A stretch of 64,000 bases of DNA. Source: a virus. The stretch's first letter is position 1; each line of letters starts with the position of its first letter. Location of the stretch: positions 62,001 to 126,000 of IMG/VR virus record IMGVR_UViG_3300042261_001309; one strand, written 5' to 3'. The position numbers and the translations under genes were made by a program. Below are positions 3,089 to 52,289 of this stretch, in pieces. A model generated the notes under the pieces. That model was not told where the DNA came from. It did no database searches and saw only the letters and a program-made list of their open reading frames with translations.

Positions 3089-4170
3089 AGCTGGGCCTTT
3101 ACAAATTTATCCAAAACCAACTTTGAATCCTCGGTGTTAATAAGTGAATATAGCAAATCCACGATATCGGGCTGCTCGCAACTAAGCTTCAATGCTTCGT
3201 ATACGCGATCCGTATTGTTTATTTCACTGCGAATACTGCATTCCACCTTGGCATGTTTTACATTAGCTGATACTTGAGCTAACCGCACATGGGCTACTCG
3301 ATATAGACTGGTAAGTAATTTTAGCTTATCTTGTGTACTGCGATTGTACTTAACAACCACTACTGGCATGGCGCCTTTTGCTTTTTCGTATCTTGAATAT
3401 AGATAGCCGATTTCGTGCTCTTTGAAATCAAGAGAAGTTAAATCGACTATATGATAACCTCGCTTTAACGTCAGTGGTATACGTTTTAAGGTCTTACCGT
3501 CGAAATGGATTACACTTTTAGCATCACCTATTTCACCAGAATTAATTACGCCCGGCGAACCACAATACATTACAGGTATTTCTTTAGTGCAATTTTTTAA
3601 CGTACCTTGTAAGGGTTTATGTATATCCCCTAAGATAATTCCTTTTAATTTTGGAAATACCTCAAATACAGGAAAAGTACTGAAATCGATTTTCTTCTTT
3701 TCCTCACAGAATGGGAATATACTTAAAAACTGGCCATGGAAAAACAGCCATTCAACCTTAGAAGCATAGGCACATGCTTTTAATCCATCCGGTATATAAT
3801 CTTTAACGTCGCTATAATCCAACCCAAATAAGTTAGGCGTAGCGTCTTCAGAAAAGGCTAGAAACTCAGAAGCATCCCTAAGCCAACATTTACCATTAAT
3901 TGGTTTACTGTGGTCACCTGCTAATCCAATTGGGGTAACACCGTTATTCTTAAGTAGTCTTACGCCGTCTTTTACAAAGCTTATTAATTCCGGAGTTGGT
4001 TTGTTAGTGTCGAACTCGTCGCCACAATTAATCAAATAATCTACCTTTAAGCTAATAGCTAAAGAACAGATATCCGTAAATGTGGTTTTAAGATCCTGGG
4101 CCAACTCCGGTTTATTAAACGGAGTCAGCCCAAGATGCAGGTCTGCAAAAGCTAGAAATGATTTACTCAT
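3082..4170 (-). CDS. Mre11/SbcD-like nuclease (T4 gp47 type) with altered metal ligands
   Basis: 362 residues. Calcineurin-type phosphoesterase motifs appear in order: DLH (D10, H12), GDEFD (50-54), GDHS (85-88) in place of the usual GNHD, His145 in FFHGQ, and GDIH (181-184) in place of the usual GHxH. The C-terminus (about residues 230-362) would be the Rad50-binding and capping part. The family makes a manganese-dependent nuclease with Rad50/SbcC, which is encoded just downstream. The start overlaps the previous gene as ATGA (4167-4170). Two substituted ligand positions (Asn to Asp, His to Asp) are unusual and may change activity, although Asp can still bind metal. Confidence 0.88.
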   Translation of the reverse strand: MSKSFLAFADLHLGLTPFNKPELAQDLKTTFTDICSLAISLKVDYLINCGDEFDTNKPTPELISFVKDGVRLLKNNGVTPIGLAGDHSKPINGKCWLRDASEFLAFSEDATPNLFGLDYSDVKDYIPDGLKACAYASKVEWLFFHGQFLSIFPFCEEKKKIDFSTFPVFEVFPKLKGIILGDIHKPLQGTLKNCTKEIPVMYCGSPGVINSGEIGDAKSVIHFDGKTLKRIPLTLKRGYHIVDLTSLDFKEHEIGYLYSRYEKAKGAMPVVVVKYNRSTQDKLKLLTSLYRVAHVRLAQVSANVKHAKVECSIRSEINNTDRVYEALKLSCEQPDIVDLLYSLINTEDSKLVLDKFVKAQLC

Positions 4171-6075: not shown

Positions 6076-6429
6076 TTAACTTACTTCGTATTTTTTTAGG
6101 AACTCACTAACTACGGTCAAGATATTGTCTCCTTCAGGTTGAATCACAAAATCATCAACCGTACCGTAGGCTTTTATAAACTCGCTGACATTTTTAGTCA
6201 ACCATTGGTTTAAGAAAGTTCTAAACTTAGCGTGACTAAACGATACTTCTTCAAGCTCGTTGCTGTTATCCTCGGCTGGTACAGAGATTACCAATAAACC
6301 GTCCTCCAGCCTATCTTTATTTATCTTACCTTTAATAGCCAACTCACACAAGGGCATCCTAAGTACCCCTGTTGATTTGGATGTTTTTAAAAACAGGGTG
6401 TCTAACTTGAAGTCCTCGTCTTGGGTCAT
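6076..6429 (-). CDS. Hypothetical protein in the AAA+/DUF3150 cassette
   Basis: 117 residues, not recognised. Acidic N-terminal part with MPLCELAIKGKINKDRL, central acidic stretch (EDNSNELEEVSF), then a helical segment (FRTFLNQWLTKNVSEFIKAY) and a 'VQPEGDN' type turn. Its ATG overlaps the end of the DUF3150-like gene (6426-6429), so it belongs to the same operon. A role as accessory subunit of the AAA+ system is a guess from position only. Confidence 0.6.
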   Translation of the reverse strand: MTQDEDFKLDTLFLKTSKSTGVLRMPLCELAIKGKINKDRLEDGLLVISVPAEDNSNELEEVSFSHAKFRTFLNQWLTKNVSEFIKAYGTVDDFVIQPEGDNILTVVSEFLKKYEVS

Positions 6430-7406
6430 ACCTGAATACGACGAACATATTCGCCGGTAACCGTGTCAATGTCACTAACTTTTTGTGCGGCATCCAAAAC
6501 CTGGCCAACCGCAAGCTGCAACGCTTCTTTGGCCTCTGTGTCATTCTTAAAATCTCTACCGGTAACCAACAAGGCTTGCACTGCTTGCAACTGGTCAGCC
6601 ACGGCTGAGTCATTTAAGAAATTCACATCTTTAAAGGATTCCACAACGTCACTCAACGAAGCAATGTTTCTGCTGGAGATAACCTTGCCTGTGCGCAACC
6701 GTTCCGCAACATTTGAAAAGGCGGAAATAATATTACCTCTAACGTGTGTTACTGCATCAGATAAGAACGAATTGAGCGTCCTGAAGTTTTCGTGGTATAC
6801 GGCCGCCAAGTCTTCCCGTTGCCGATCCAAAAGCTCCCGCTCAGCGGTTTGCTGCGCTTGAAGAGTTTGTAACGACACCTCGTCCATTTTTGTGGGGAAC
6901 GACACGGCAAACATACTAATCCCGAACTGAAACTTGCTACGAATTTGATCCGCAGCCGGGTAGTGTTTCTCCAATTTATCTCGATAGGCTTCATTGTCGC
7001 TAAGGTAACTTTCTACGGTTGCAGCATACTCTGTCACAAAACGATCTACTTCACCAAAGAACTGATCACGATACGCGTTAAGCCTGCTCAAAACCTCAGG
7101 CACTTTGGCAGTGGGAATAAAATGCGCCGCCCCAATAGGAAATGGGATAGCCATCTGTTTCAGATTAAGCACACCTCGCGCCCGACTTTCAATGGTATTG
7201 AAAATCTTCATTCTCGCCGCCGGGATTAATTGCTTGGTACCCAAATTAGCAAACTTGGGAACCTCCTCGTCAGTTAAACCCAAGTCATGGGCAGACAAGG
7301 ACGCCACGGCTGGCCATGCTGCAATGTGTACGGCTACTAACTTACCGTCCTGAAATAACTGCTGGGTTAACTGTGCAATGCGTTGTTCTACTGTTTGATT
7401 TTCCAT
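6426..7406 (-). CDS. DUF3150-like protein, probable AAA+ partner
   Basis: 326 residues. The order of elements resembles DUF3150: VAVHIAAWPA near residue 25, a short DLGL segment, LGTKQLIPAARMKIF, a helical core with FPIGAAHFIPTAKV (about 90-104), and long helices to the C-terminus. DUF3150 proteins are found in phages and bacteria beside AAA+ ATPases, and their biochemical activity is not known. Here the gene lies between the AAA+ gene (7468-10107) and the DUF1257/DUF2997 genes, but a terminator-like hairpin (7418-7445) separates it from the AAA+ gene. That hairpin could attenuate or uncouple expression within the cassette. Confidence 0.65.
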   Translation of the reverse strand: MENQTVEQRIAQLTQQLFQDGKLVAVHIAAWPAVASLSAHDLGLTDEEVPKFANLGTKQLIPAARMKIFNTIESRARGVLNLKQMAIPFPIGAAHFIPTAKVPEVLSRLNAYRDQFFGEVDRFVTEYAATVESYLSDNEAYRDKLEKHYPAADQIRSKFQFGISMFAVSFPTKMDEVSLQTLQAQQTAERELLDRQREDLAAVYHENFRTLNSFLSDAVTHVRGNIISAFSNVAERLRTGKVISSRNIASLSDVVESFKDVNFLNDSAVADQLQAVQALLVTGRDFKNDTEAKEALQLAVGQVLDAAQKVSDIDTVTGEYVRRIQV

Positions 7407-7417
7407 AAAAATAAAAA

Positions 7418-7445
7418 GGGAGAGACACGGTTAAATGTCCCTCCC
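7418..7445 (-). terminator. Terminator between the AAA+ gene and the DUF3150-like gene
   Basis: On the minus strand GGGAGGGACA (7445-7436) pairs with TGTCTCTCCC (7427-7418), with one G-T wobble. It is followed by TTTTTATTTTT up to the ATG at 7406. It would end transcripts of the AAA+ gene, so the downstream cassette genes depend on read-through or a second promoter. Confidence 0.8.
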
Positions 7446-7465
7446 TAATTGACTGATAGATATTA

Positions 7466-7965
7466 TGTTATGTTATTTTACGCTCAGCTTCAGTAAGCAC
7501 CGAAGCCTCCCCATCGTCGTTAGCCATTAGCAACCTGCCTTGCGCCTGTGCTTTCATTTCGGCAAGCTCAGTGGCATTCGACGTCGACTGCGGAATGGTC
7601 GCTTGACACTCATCAAGCAACATGCGAGTTGTGAATTCTTTACCATTGTCGGCATATGCTTTAAACATAGTCGAAATGATAACCTGTTCAATTTCTGCGC
7701 CAGTAAATTTATCACTGGCGGCAGCGAGCTTATTTAGATCGAATTTTGCTGGATTGCGCTGCTTAAGCTTAAGCTGCACTTCCCAAATTTGCTTTCGATC
7801 TTGTTCATCCGGCAGATCAATCCACATAGCCGCATCAAAACGGCCTTTTCGTACTAGTTCCGGCGGAAGCAACGTAAAGTTGTTCGACGTACCTAGTACG
7901 AAAACTGGAGTTTTGCGATCGCTAAGCCAAGACAATAACGTGGCGAATAGCCTAGAACTTGTACC
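7466..7965 (-). CDS. Ycf46-type AAA+ ATPase, exon 2 (C-terminal part)
   Basis: The coding part ends with the stop at 7468; exon 2 encodes about 165 residues. It starts GTSSRLFATLLSWLSDRK, then FVLGTSNN (sensor 1), PPELVRKGRFD (arginine-finger region), DLPDEQDRKQIW, and the AAA+ lid with FTGAEIEQVI (sensor 2 region), ending in a polar tail. These are exactly the elements missing from exon 1 (9016-10107). Joining ...GRSDG to GTSSRLF restores the family consensus without loss or gain of residues. The frame can also be read from a GTG at 7968, but that codon lies in the intron's last bases, so an independent start is unlikely. Splicing is inferred from RNA pairing; the protein continuity is visible. 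Confidence 0.88.
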
Positions 7966-8011
7966 CACTTATCTTATGAATATACCGTTTCCGTATATTC
8001 GCTGTGTATCA

Positions 8012-8563
8012 CTACACAGATGAGGTCATATTTTTATTCTTCTTTTGAAGTGCGCGTTGTTTTTTATAGCACCGGTTGCAACGGCCAAACCCATGATGCG
8101 GAACAGTAGTCGTACCACAAGAAACACAACTAAGGTATTTTGTAGACCACGTAGCAATATGCGGATGATGAACCCTGCTATGACAAATATTACATAATGT
8201 TTGTAGATTACTTAATTCATTGTTAGGGTTAGGTTTCCCTCTGCCGTTTCCATCGATATGGTGCACAGCTAGTTTTTTAGTAGATCCACAATGGCAACAT
8301 TTATAACCGTCGCGCTCAAGAGCATTTTTCCGATTATTACCAAATTTTCGAGTATACTGCATGTATTCCTCTTTATGTGTATGGTAATGCTTATGTGACT
8401 TAGCCTTTATATACTCTCGATTTTCCATGTAATATTCTCGCTTCCTCTGTTTAATAGCCTGATCCCGCATGTAGCATGAGTTACACAGTCCCCTAGCCCG
8501 ATGCGGAAGCTCACACGTTCCACACACAACACAAGCATCGTATTTTTTGGCCCACTTTTCCAT
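8012..8563 (-). CDS. Intron-encoded HNH homing endonuclease with zinc ribbons
   Basis: 183 residues from ATG 8563. A zinc-ribbon module (KWAKKYDACVVCGT...GLCNSCY) opens the protein. A central HNH domain follows: YKCCHCGS, LAVHHIDGN, NLQTLCNICHSRVH, with paired cysteines and the His-His/Asn/His residues. A second ribbon (YLSCVSCGT...GRCNRCY) is near the C-terminus. A longer frame opens at 8650, but ATG 8563 lies one base after the stop of the preceding zinc-ribbon ORF and follows AAAGGAGG, so it is preferred. The last codons fold into the intron's 3' structure. HNH enzymes of this type mobilise group I introns by cutting intronless alleles; the target here would be the AAA+ gene junction. Confidence 0.88.
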   Translation of the reverse strand: MEKWAKKYDACVVCGTCELPHRARGLCNSCYMRDQAIKQRKREYYMENREYIKAKSHKHYHTHKEEYMQYTRKFGNNRKNALERDGYKCCHCGSTKKLAVHHIDGNGRGKPNPNNELSNLQTLCNICHSRVHHPHIATWSTKYLSCVSCGTTTVPHHGFGRCNRCYKKQRALQKKNKNMTSSV

Positions 8564-8564
8564 T

Positions 8565-8771
8565 TTAACCCTTTGCCTCCTTTTTGCGTGAATACGACGC
8601 CCATTTTTGGGCTTTAAACCGTTCCTGTTTTTTGGGGTCTGGATTGGCATGATATTGTTTTAAATAACAATATATGCATAATCCTTTTGCCATGTGCCGT
8701 TTTTTATTTGTGCCGCACATAACGCACTTATCGTGTTTAATGGACCATTTAGTCATAACGGCATTATCCAC
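8565..8771 (-). CDS. Intron-encoded zinc-ribbon ORF, possibly a detached endonuclease N-terminus
   Basis: 68 residues in another frame just before the HNH gene (stop TAA then A then ATG). It carries the same module as the HNH protein: WSIKHDKCVMCGT...KGLCIYCY, followed by a basic tail. The frame opens with GTG at 8771; ATG 8756 (MTKWSIKHD) is the alternative. Either this is a separate small protein translated by coupling, or it is the N-terminal ribbon of an ancestral three-ribbon HNH protein cut off by a frameshift. The module's repetition is visible; which explanation holds is not. Confidence 0.5.
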   Translation of the reverse strand: MDNAVMTKWSIKHDKCVMCGTNKKRHMAKGLCIYCYLKQYHANPDPKKQERFKAQKWASYSRKKEAKG

Positions 8772-9015
8772 GATTTTAGAAACTTCTCAAGAAGAATATT
8801 CGGTGTTTCGCGAACACTGTTCGCTACGAGCTTGCGCTCTGATCGTTGAACTCGCAACCTTAGTTAAAAGGCTGATCAGCTGCTGATTGACTCTTAGGTT
8901 TTTACCCACTCAGATATTTTCAAACATTCACGCTCGTCATTACTGACCACGTTGTAGTTATCCGAGCTTAAGTTATTCCAGCAATTAACCGAATTTATCG
9001 ACGGCAATACAACTC

Positions 9016-10107
9016 ACCGTCACTTCTACCGGCAGTCGCTGAAATAGAAAGTGATTTTTCTATTTCGTCTAACATGAGAATACAACTACCTACACCATCT
9101 AACGTCCGAATTACCGACCGCATATTCTGCTCACTGGCGCCTACGAGGCTGGAGAACAATCCACCAATATCCAATTGGAACAATGGCAAATTAAGTGCAT
9201 TAGATGTAGCCTTAGCCAGCAGTGTTTTTCCTACGCCAGGCGGTCCACAGACGAGTAGCCCCTTAGGATAGGGCAAACCGTATTTACGTGCTTCCGGCTC
9301 AAAAGCCTTGGTGCGTAATTGAATCCATTTTTTAACACCTTTCAATCCCCCTACTTGATCAAAGGTGACGTCAGGTTCAAGGTATTGCAACAACGCATTC
9401 TTCTTTACCTGCTGAACCTTTTCAGAGAATACCGATGCCACGAAACCATCATTAAATGCCCCGTTTTCAACCAAGGCCAATGTGAAGCTATCCTCAGCTT
9501 CAGGATAAGTTAATCCTTTAGCCGCCTCAATCGCCCGTTGACGAATTTTAGGTGCAATCGACTTATTCGGATTGTCGAAGCATCGGTATACGAAATCAAG
9601 TCGGTCACCTAACATTGCTTCGTCAGGCAACGTATAATCCAACGTTTGAACCGACTTTTCCAAGTCGATCGGAATAGTACCGACCGGTGTAACAAACATT
9701 AAACAAACGGCAGCCGCTTTGAATACAGGTACCAAGTTCCGAAAAGTTCGGAGTATTTTAGGGTTCTGGATATACGGATGGAAGTCCTTAAGAATAATAA
9801 TTACATTAGTTTCATTACTTTTCCCGTAGCCTTCCAGCCATTTCATCAATGGCCCAACCTCGGTTTTATCCGAGATTGCTGCTTTACCCAATTCCCCTGA
9901 AGGCAGCTTTGTGAACTTTGTAAGCCCACCCACTGCGTCCCATTCGTAAACAATACGGGCTGCTGCATTTCCGTTTTCACCTGCGTTAGGAGAGCCATAA
10001 AAAGCATCCCTAATGTCTCTACATACGCGGTCTTCTTCGTGCGTCACTACGAGCAGCATTGGGTATGCCGCCTTAATATAATTCCGTAACTTTTCTTGGA
10101 ACTTCAT
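9016..10107 (-). CDS. Ycf46-type AAA+ ATPase, exon 1 (N-terminal part)
   Basis: Encodes residues 1-364 of a protein of about 529 residues after splicing with exon 2 (7468-7965). The N-terminal domain starts with helices and YPMLLVVTHEEDRVCRDI, like the Ycf46 N-domain ('aryPli.v.T.Ee.Rv'). The AAA+ core has Walker A GPPGVGKT (288-295) and Walker B ILMLDEIEK (343-351), then SATAGRSDG at the exon end. Without splicing the frame adds only ELYCRR and stops at 8995, losing sensor 1, arginine finger and lid, so splicing is needed for a working ATPase. The family is related to the FtsH/Cdc48-type ATPase cores but has no protease domain. It sits 5 nt after the AT-hook gene. Confidence 0.9.
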
Positions 10108-50857: not shown

Positions 50858-50886
50858 CAATATCGCACATAACTAAGGTTTGTCAA
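50858..50886 (-). promoter_or_regulatory. Sigma70-like promoter for the GNAT/methyltransferase unit
   Basis: A consensus -35 TTGACA (50886-50881, minus strand) is followed 16 nt later by GATATT (50864-50859), a 4/6 match to the -10 box. It overlaps the stop of the LAGLIDADG gene. Expected transcription start is close to the ATG at 50847. Confidence 0.5.
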
Positions 50887-52253
50887 ATTTCATAATCGTC
50901 TGAGGTTTTAAAGCGCTTGCGCTCGTGTACCTCTGCCCTCTTAGCGTCCCTATACATTTTCCGTACTTCCGCCTCTGCTACGATTTTAGCAAACTTCTGA
51001 TACTTACGATCAAACCAATAATCTGTTTTTCCATAGAGCCAGTAAAAGAGCTTAATCATGTCTTCTTGTCTATGTAGCGAGATATAATAATTATTCTTTT
51101 TTGTCTCGTGGCAATAACGCAAAGGATAAGGGGCAATTCCTAAAAATTGATTAAACTTATTCTGGAGCGTCGTTAAAAACTCGCGAGTTGATATAAATTT
51201 CACGCGCCGGTTTTTACTGGTTAATGAAAAATAAACACAGCCATCACCATCCATGTTGCCTAGAATAAAACTAGAGACATACTCGTCAGGCACCGGAGGA
51301 AAAGTTATAATTAACGATTTTCTGGCAGGCATACCGTAATCTGCCAATATCTTACACATATGCCGGCTATGTAATGCTATACCTGTTTGATCTTGCTTGG
51401 GACCGTCTTTAAAATGCGTAGTACGTATTGGACATGTTGTTTTAAGCTCTTTTGCGAAAAATTCAATAGCTGAACGATCCCCTGACTGCAAAGAGATAGA
51501 TACTCTATCTATATCTTGGTGATTGCAACCATCCGCTGAAAATAAACCTAAAAGATACGCTTTATTATGCGAGTCAATTACGTCAAAGTAGTGTTCATCT
51601 GTTTTATACTTTAAGCCTGCCTCATGGCAAGATCGTCTTACGCAACCTTCTTTAATAAGTATGTTACGAATTACATGCTCCATTGTGTTACACTTGGTTG
51701 CTATCAGTCCAATATGCAACCGATCCTCGGTATACATCTTTACTATCTCTTCGTTGGTATACGGCAAATTACGCTCTTTAGGTTTACAGTAACAAATCAG
51801 GTTAGTAGGGCGTTTAGGAAAACCTAATCTTTTAGCAGTTGATCGTAGGCCACACCAAGTACGCGTAGGCCATTTCTTTAGTATGTCTTCAGTAGTAAGA
51901 GTGACATAGTCAATAGCTAGCTGCTTTAATTCTGCAGCTGAATAACAGTCTGTTCGATCTATCCACACCACATTATGTTTTTTTAATATGCGCTTCAATC
52001 GATTTAAACCTAGCGCATACTTATTTAAAATGTCAACAAGCTGTAACGTTTGGTTATTATAATCAGCAATTATAGCCTGCTCGTCTATAACTTTAATCGG
52101 CTTCTTGCGCGAGCAACCCAATTTTAAAGCTCTTAATTTTATAGATACCCAAGTTCGCTTATATTTATCACAAAAAAATTTACGAGTTAATGTATAGTCA
52201 GGATAGTCCAACTTTAAACTTTCGTCTTCTTCTACAGTCCAAATTCTTTTCAT
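50883..52253 (-). CDS. LAGLIDADG homing endonuclease (free-standing)
   Basis: 456 residues from ATG 52253; the frame extends to a TTG at 52262. Two LAGLIDADG-type motifs are visible: AYLLGLFSADGCN (about 233-246) and SSFILGNMDGDGCVYF (about 328-343), so it is a single-chain two-motif enzyme. The N-terminal 200 residues hold repeated helix-turn-helix-like segments, e.g. WTVEEDESLKLDYPDYT at the start and a Lys/Arg-rich RKKP segment, probably DNA-binding. It is not inside a gene, so it behaves as a free-standing homing gene placed between capsid and neck genes. Own promoter-like sequence at 52261-52289 and an upstream terminator. Confidence 0.85.
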   Translation of the reverse strand: MKRIWTVEEDESLKLDYPDYTLTRKFFCDKYKRTWVSIKLRALKLGCSRKKPIKVIDEQAIIADYNNQTLQLVDILNKYALGLNRLKRILKKHNVVWIDRTDCYSAAELKQLAIDYVTLTTEDILKKWPTRTWCGLRSTAKRLGFPKRPTNLICYCKPKERNLPYTNEEIVKMYTEDRLHIGLIATKCNTMEHVIRNILIKEGCVRRSCHEAGLKYKTDEHYFDVIDSHNKAYLLGLFSADGCNHQDIDRVSISLQSGDRSAIEFFAKELKTTCPIRTTHFKDGPKQDQTGIALHSRHMCKILADYGMPARKSLIITFPPVPDEYVSSFILGNMDGDGCVYFSLTSKNRRVKFISTREFLTTLQNKFNQFLGIAPYPLRYCHETKKNNYYISLHRQEDMIKLFYWLYGKTDYWFDRKYQKFAKIVAEAEVRKMYRDAKRAEVHERKRFKTSDDYEI

Positions 52254-52260
52254 TAATACC

Positions 52261-52289
52261 AACGTACAGCATAGTCATAACGTTGTCAA
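52261..52289 (-). promoter_or_regulatory. Promoter-like sequence upstream of the LAGLIDADG gene
   Basis: Minus strand ATTTGACA has the consensus -35 TTGACA (52289-52284). Seventeen nt later TACGTT (52266-52261) is a poor -10 box (3/6). The ATG is at 52253, so a transcript would be almost leaderless. It follows the capsid terminator, where a new promoter is needed. Confidence 0.4.

Follow-up and report, generated by a model that had tools for sequence, protein, structure and literature searches.

An AAA+ ATPase gene of an uncultivated bacterial virus is interrupted by what is very probably (we put it at about 0.92) a mobile, self-splicing group IA2-type intron with an HNH frame. The window, that is, the whole 64,000-nucleotide stretch analysed, corresponds to bases 62001-126000 of a 127,116-base IMG/VR virus record, and the gene runs on its minus strand from 10107 to 7468. 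The intron reading is based on the core anatomy, the splice-site pairing, the seamless join of the protein, intronless alleles and a group of sibling introns; catalysis, endonuclease activity and homing, i.e. a two-step transesterification with guanosine and an HNH-driven spread, we infer from established group I chemistry and homing biology. An earlier note had proposed a group I intron in this gene at 7966-9015, and this is supported by core covariation, models built from relatives, the siblings and the intronless alleles. The gene is divided as follows:

9016-10107, minus strand: exon 1 of the AAA+ ATPase gene, 364 codons with Walker A and Walker B (Pfam AAA, 60.5 bits; PHROG 8638, 216 bits, at profile positions 21-385)
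7966-9015, minus strand: putative group I intron, 1,050 nt (P1/P10 pairing, weak Rfam match, covariance models from relatives)
7468-7965, minus strand: exon 2 of the AAA+ ATPase gene (PHROG 8638 profile positions 388-546; ungapped join in the alignment)

Regarding the host gene, labelled Ycf46-type in the earlier note, the profile matches establish Pfam AAA (PF00004) and, as the nearest family, PHROG 8638, which is listed as function unknown. The insertion point lies between codons 364 and 365 (G364/G365), flanked by the invariant residues D363 and G365, and in the protein alignment it is 16 codons downstream of the Walker B glutamate E348, which agrees with the position just after Walker B given in the earlier note. 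Splicing at 9016/7965 would join ..GRSDG to GTSSRLF, the junction read previously, and produce a protein of 529 aa; this joined protein aligned with four homologues without gaps across the junction, both exons matching PHROG 8638. The comparison with intronless homologues that had been suggested as a check did yield uninterrupted alleles, e.g. L139, which reads GACGGT/GGG at the insertion site. A DUF3150 gene (7406-6426) comes after the ATPase gene, and the terminase large subunit gene is on the opposite strand. The ATPase-DUF3150 order of this region (6426-10107) was also seen by eye in another homologous locus, L176. Models of the anti-phage ATPase IetA/IteA match the domain as well, but the match is confined to the ATPase part and falls far short of the NCBIfam cut-off.

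Both splice sites can be read from the pairing of one guide sequence. P1 has six pairs with a U.G at the splice site (U9016.G9005), and P10 has seven pairs between UUGUAUU (9012-9006) and GGUACAA of exon 2 (7965-7959), exactly as the earlier note had them. The intron tail is AUAAGAUAAGUG, and its last base is a G (G7966). Around the 3' site the only in-phase join preceded by a G is 7966/7965, as read from the sequence, and the intron ends are fixed because the reading frame constrains the join. The helices of the ribozyme would be these:

9000-9021, minus strand: P1, exon GACGGU (9021-9016) with guide GCCGUC (9005-9000)
8798-8994, minus strand: P3, 8994-8988 with 8804-8798, 7 bp; of other sequence in L074 and L126, still paired
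8880-8984, minus strand: P4, 8984-8979 with 8885-8880
8908-8967, minus strand: P5a, 8967-8959 with 8916-8908
8851-8879, minus strand: P6 (8879-8878 with 8852-8851) and P6a (8874-8868 with 8861-8855)
8024-8844, minus strand: P7, GAUCA (8844-8840) with UGACC (8028-8024); same R and S in L080
8810-8839, minus strand: P7.1 (8839-8836 with 8831-8828), linker GUA (8827-8825) and P7.2 (8824-8819 with 8815-8810)
8036-8797, minus strand: P8, 8797-8789 with 8044-8036, 9 bp; loop with both ORFs, at the same place in L074, L126 and L111
7978-8019, minus strand: P9 (8019-8013 with 8008-8002) and P9.1 (8000-7993 with 7985-7978)

The P element AAUUGCUGGAA and the Q element AAUCAGCAGCU, both already noticed, are present and form P4. 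Together with P1, P3, P4 and P10, the helices from P6 to P9.1 can all be formed, and in the siblings the pairing is preserved despite sequence changes. For P8 we used nine pairs, since a count of ten includes a pair that shares base 8798 with P3. The subgroup is IA2 by the P7.1 and P7.2 joined by GUA at 8839-8810, a criterion taken from the assignment of the Pf-WMP3 intron (PMC3428280). The R/S pair, the 3' domain and the endonuclease frames in P8 go beyond the earlier account. R reads GTTCAACGATCA (8851-8840). S, at about 8034-8023, is located beyond the reading frame, in a stretch with the sequence AAGAAGAAUA-AAAAUA-UGACCU that ends at 8023. P7 has one mismatch, A8843.C8025, beside the guanosine site, which was otherwise found in one other intron (L080); the guanosine-binding pair G8844-C8024 is retained, and R and S pair despite the neighbouring A.C. 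J8/7 is AAAAUA (8034-8029), ending in AAUA instead of the usual GAUA, with L078 as the lone precedent.

The P8 loop, of roughly 740 nt, contains two open reading frames:

8565-8756, minus strand: ORF1, a zinc-finger stub of 63 aa that by tblastn matches the N-terminal end of the ORF in the L074 intron (59 aa, 56% identity)
8012-8563, minus strand: ORF2, an apparently complete 183-aa putative zinc finger-HNH-zinc finger endonuclease (PHROG HNH families to 8.7e-12)

ORF2 scored 20.1 bits against Pfam HNH, slightly under the cut-off of 21.4, and is 35-37% identical to the ORFs of the L074 type; the HNH motif and the zinc ligands are present, the motif columns being invariant in the alignment. No relatives were found with the endonuclease as a single-sequence query, and an alignment query gave remote HNH matches only. 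The last codons of ORF2 (AAG AAG AAT AAA AAT ATG ACC TCA TCT GTG TAG) double as the 3' strand of P8, J8/7, the 3' strand of P7 and part of P9. Aligned with the N-terminus of the siblings' protein ORF1 is 46-52% identical, and with ORF2 40%; at the DNA level it shares with L111 a 47-nt stretch that is 85% identical. This fits ORF1 being a remnant of the original frame and ORF2 a second, diverged one. A hairpin predicted at 8785-8729 on the minus strand (-13.7 kcal/mol) holds the start codon of ORF1 in its apical loop and might restrict how much of the intron frame is translated.

The covariance search proposed in the earlier note had a mixed outcome. The Rfam model RF00028 gave 23 bits on the intron and did not reach its gathering score of 50, a threshold that is not a biological criterion, most likely because P8 carries the long loop with the endonuclease frames, and we judge that the Rfam alignment puts the core's 3' half in the wrong place. 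Models built from relatives, the window sequence being left out of both, did recognise the intron. That of the 5' domain (seven relatives) matched 8998-8799 with 115.4 bits and that of the 3' domain (three siblings) matched 8044-7966 with 63.5 bits; the E-values in 64 kb, 6.2e-26 and 4.6e-16 respectively, are rough owing to a short calibration, and the matches are nevertheless far beyond chance. The second match stops exactly on the predicted final intron base, 7966.

The closest relatives of the intron are four IMG/VR introns, L074, L126, L106 and L111, on the same contigs as the ATPase loci L186, L183, L182 and L185. Like the window intron, they are in the same ATPase gene, have an IA2-type core with a zinc finger-HNH-zinc finger family ORF in P8, and share a near-identical P9.1 and 3' end. 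They differ from it in their site, which lies 51 nt upstream and separates D347 from E348 in Walker B, in having a single intact ORF instead of a stub plus an ORF, and in a regular P7 and another guide sequence. No Rfam group I match was reported for them. S lies beyond the frame in L074, L126 and L111, and locus L106 ends before that point; because the siblings carry S in this position, we placed S distally in the window and gave P8 the same architecture. An alternative P7 with AUCGU near 8783 was dropped for this reason. The phage contig of one sibling, L074, also has a tmRNA gene at 3729-4138 (Rfam, 149.8 bits).

A search with the conserved P5 motif (ACTACAACG..GTGAATG) turned up further introns of this type, both in the phages vB_AbaM_ME3, phiR1-37 and LPJP1 and on IMG/VR contigs. 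The three phage introns have 78-79% identity to the window over about 75-100 nt of P3-P5 and the same P5 subdomain, but they are in other host genes, have other or no ORFs, and carry the canonical S AAGATATAGTCT. A Q-R pattern search gave about 110 further places, nearly all of them intron-like. In almost all relatives J8/7 ends in GAUA and S pairs with R, in the variants GAUCA+UGAUC, GACUA+UAGUC, GACCA+UGGUC and GAACA+UGUUC. R and S thus covary across about 150 introns, and this covariation is the informative part of the survey, as the GAUA/S pattern was itself searched for and the counts are biased towards it. In a tree of core sequences the window intron was not firmly placed, its nearest neighbours by path being L106 and L074.

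The mismatch in P7, the altered J8/7 and the splitting of the endonuclease region into two frames could also mean that the intron is decaying and splices poorly or not at all, leaving the ATPase gene broken or made as two fragments. We consider this unlikely, since the R and S are shared by L080 and the change in J8/7 by L078; furthermore, both exons are open and aligned with their homologues, the other helices are all intact and ORF2 retains its HNH and zinc ligands. Far less probable is that no intron exists and that an endonuclease gene was inserted into the ATPase gene, or that the assembly is wrong. The genes of ORF1 and ORF2 do break the ATPase frame; however, they are enclosed by a complete ribozyme core that ends exactly at codon boundaries, and the siblings lie in homologous genes on independent contigs.

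There is also the question of where S lies. Rfam puts it at about 8756-8742, where UGGUC could pair with GAUCA of R, and the ORFs would then be downstream of the core, in P9. Nevertheless, this candidate is without the J8/7 GAUA seen in nearly all relatives, the siblings have S beyond their ORF, P8 suits an S at the distal position, and 8044-7966 is where the 3'-domain model places P8, S and P9. We therefore dropped the Rfam placement as highly improbable.

Under the reading as a group I intron with S beyond the frame, the guide (9012-9000) would bind both splice sites in the precursor RNA through P1 and P10. A guanosine bound in P7 would attack after U9016, and the freed end of exon 1 would then attack after G7966, joining the exons in frame and restoring codons 364 and 365 of the ATPase. 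The HNH protein made from the P8 loop would spread the intron, presumably by nicking or cutting ATPase alleles that lack it.

Conserved phage genes are well known to carry group I introns with endonucleases (PMC3984707, PMC3428280, PMC11878797), and the intron itself is an ordinary kind of element; it is the host gene that is unusual. In a limited literature search, which is not proof of absence, we found no earlier report of a group I intron in the PHROG 8638 ATPase family. The IA2 intron of cyanophage Pf-WMP3 with I-PfoP3I (PMC3428280) resembles ours in P7.1-GUA-P7.2, the HNH endonuclease, an ORF that contributes to core helices and the insertion in a conserved functional region. However, it is in a DNA polymerase gene, its ORF begins in P6a and spans P7 instead of filling P8, and its splicing and endonuclease activity were shown experimentally. 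The Bastillevirinae introns (PMC11878797) likewise match Rfam in part, have their core divided by a long loop with an endonuclease and, in some cases, contain endonuclease genes fragmented inside the intron, but they are in other host genes and their self-splicing was tested in vitro. Our case extends the set of genes that host phage group I introns. It also illustrates a practical trap for annotation: an endonuclease frame in P8 leaves the Rfam score sub-threshold, and the core's 3' half is placed incorrectly.

Seven of the 79 homologous ATPase loci are interrupted and 72 have no interruption in the ATPase core (Vibrio phage ATPase matches, which end near residue 410, were left out of the counts). 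Actually 74 loci are continuous over residues 330-390, but these include L194 and L195, whose insert is at 293/294, hence the 72. The siblings account for L182, L183, L185 and L186. In L194 and L195 the insert is in Walker A (PGTG/KS), and these two may be one lineage, as the compared stretches look identical. In L176 it separates G from V, a single codon further downstream than the window's site. At about 1.09 kb each, the inserts in L176 (3144-4231) and L194 (2907-4000) have LAGLIDADG-like frames; Rfam gave no group I match on them, and the P/Q/R/S-like elements were seen by eye only, which leaves the class of these inserts unproved.

It is possible, although we hold it tentatively, that the PHROG 8638 ATPase core is a repeatedly invaded landing site, with HNH introns in two positions separated by 51 nt and LAGLIDADG-like inserts in two others, and that the window intron carries a chimeric endonuclease region, an old stub and a new ORF, which switched its target within the gene. 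With its several insertion sites and two endonuclease families, this one gene offers a natural series that suits tests of how mobile introns choose and change their targets.

Elsewhere in the window, at 50883-52262 on the minus strand, a LAGLIDADG-like endonuclease gene of 459 aa (PHROG 4645) directly follows a major head protein gene and looks free-standing. We rejected it as a second intron, as Rfam found nothing there and the flanking genes look complete. Its protein shows a remote similarity of 26-29% with the ORFs in the ATPase-gene inserts of L176 and L194.
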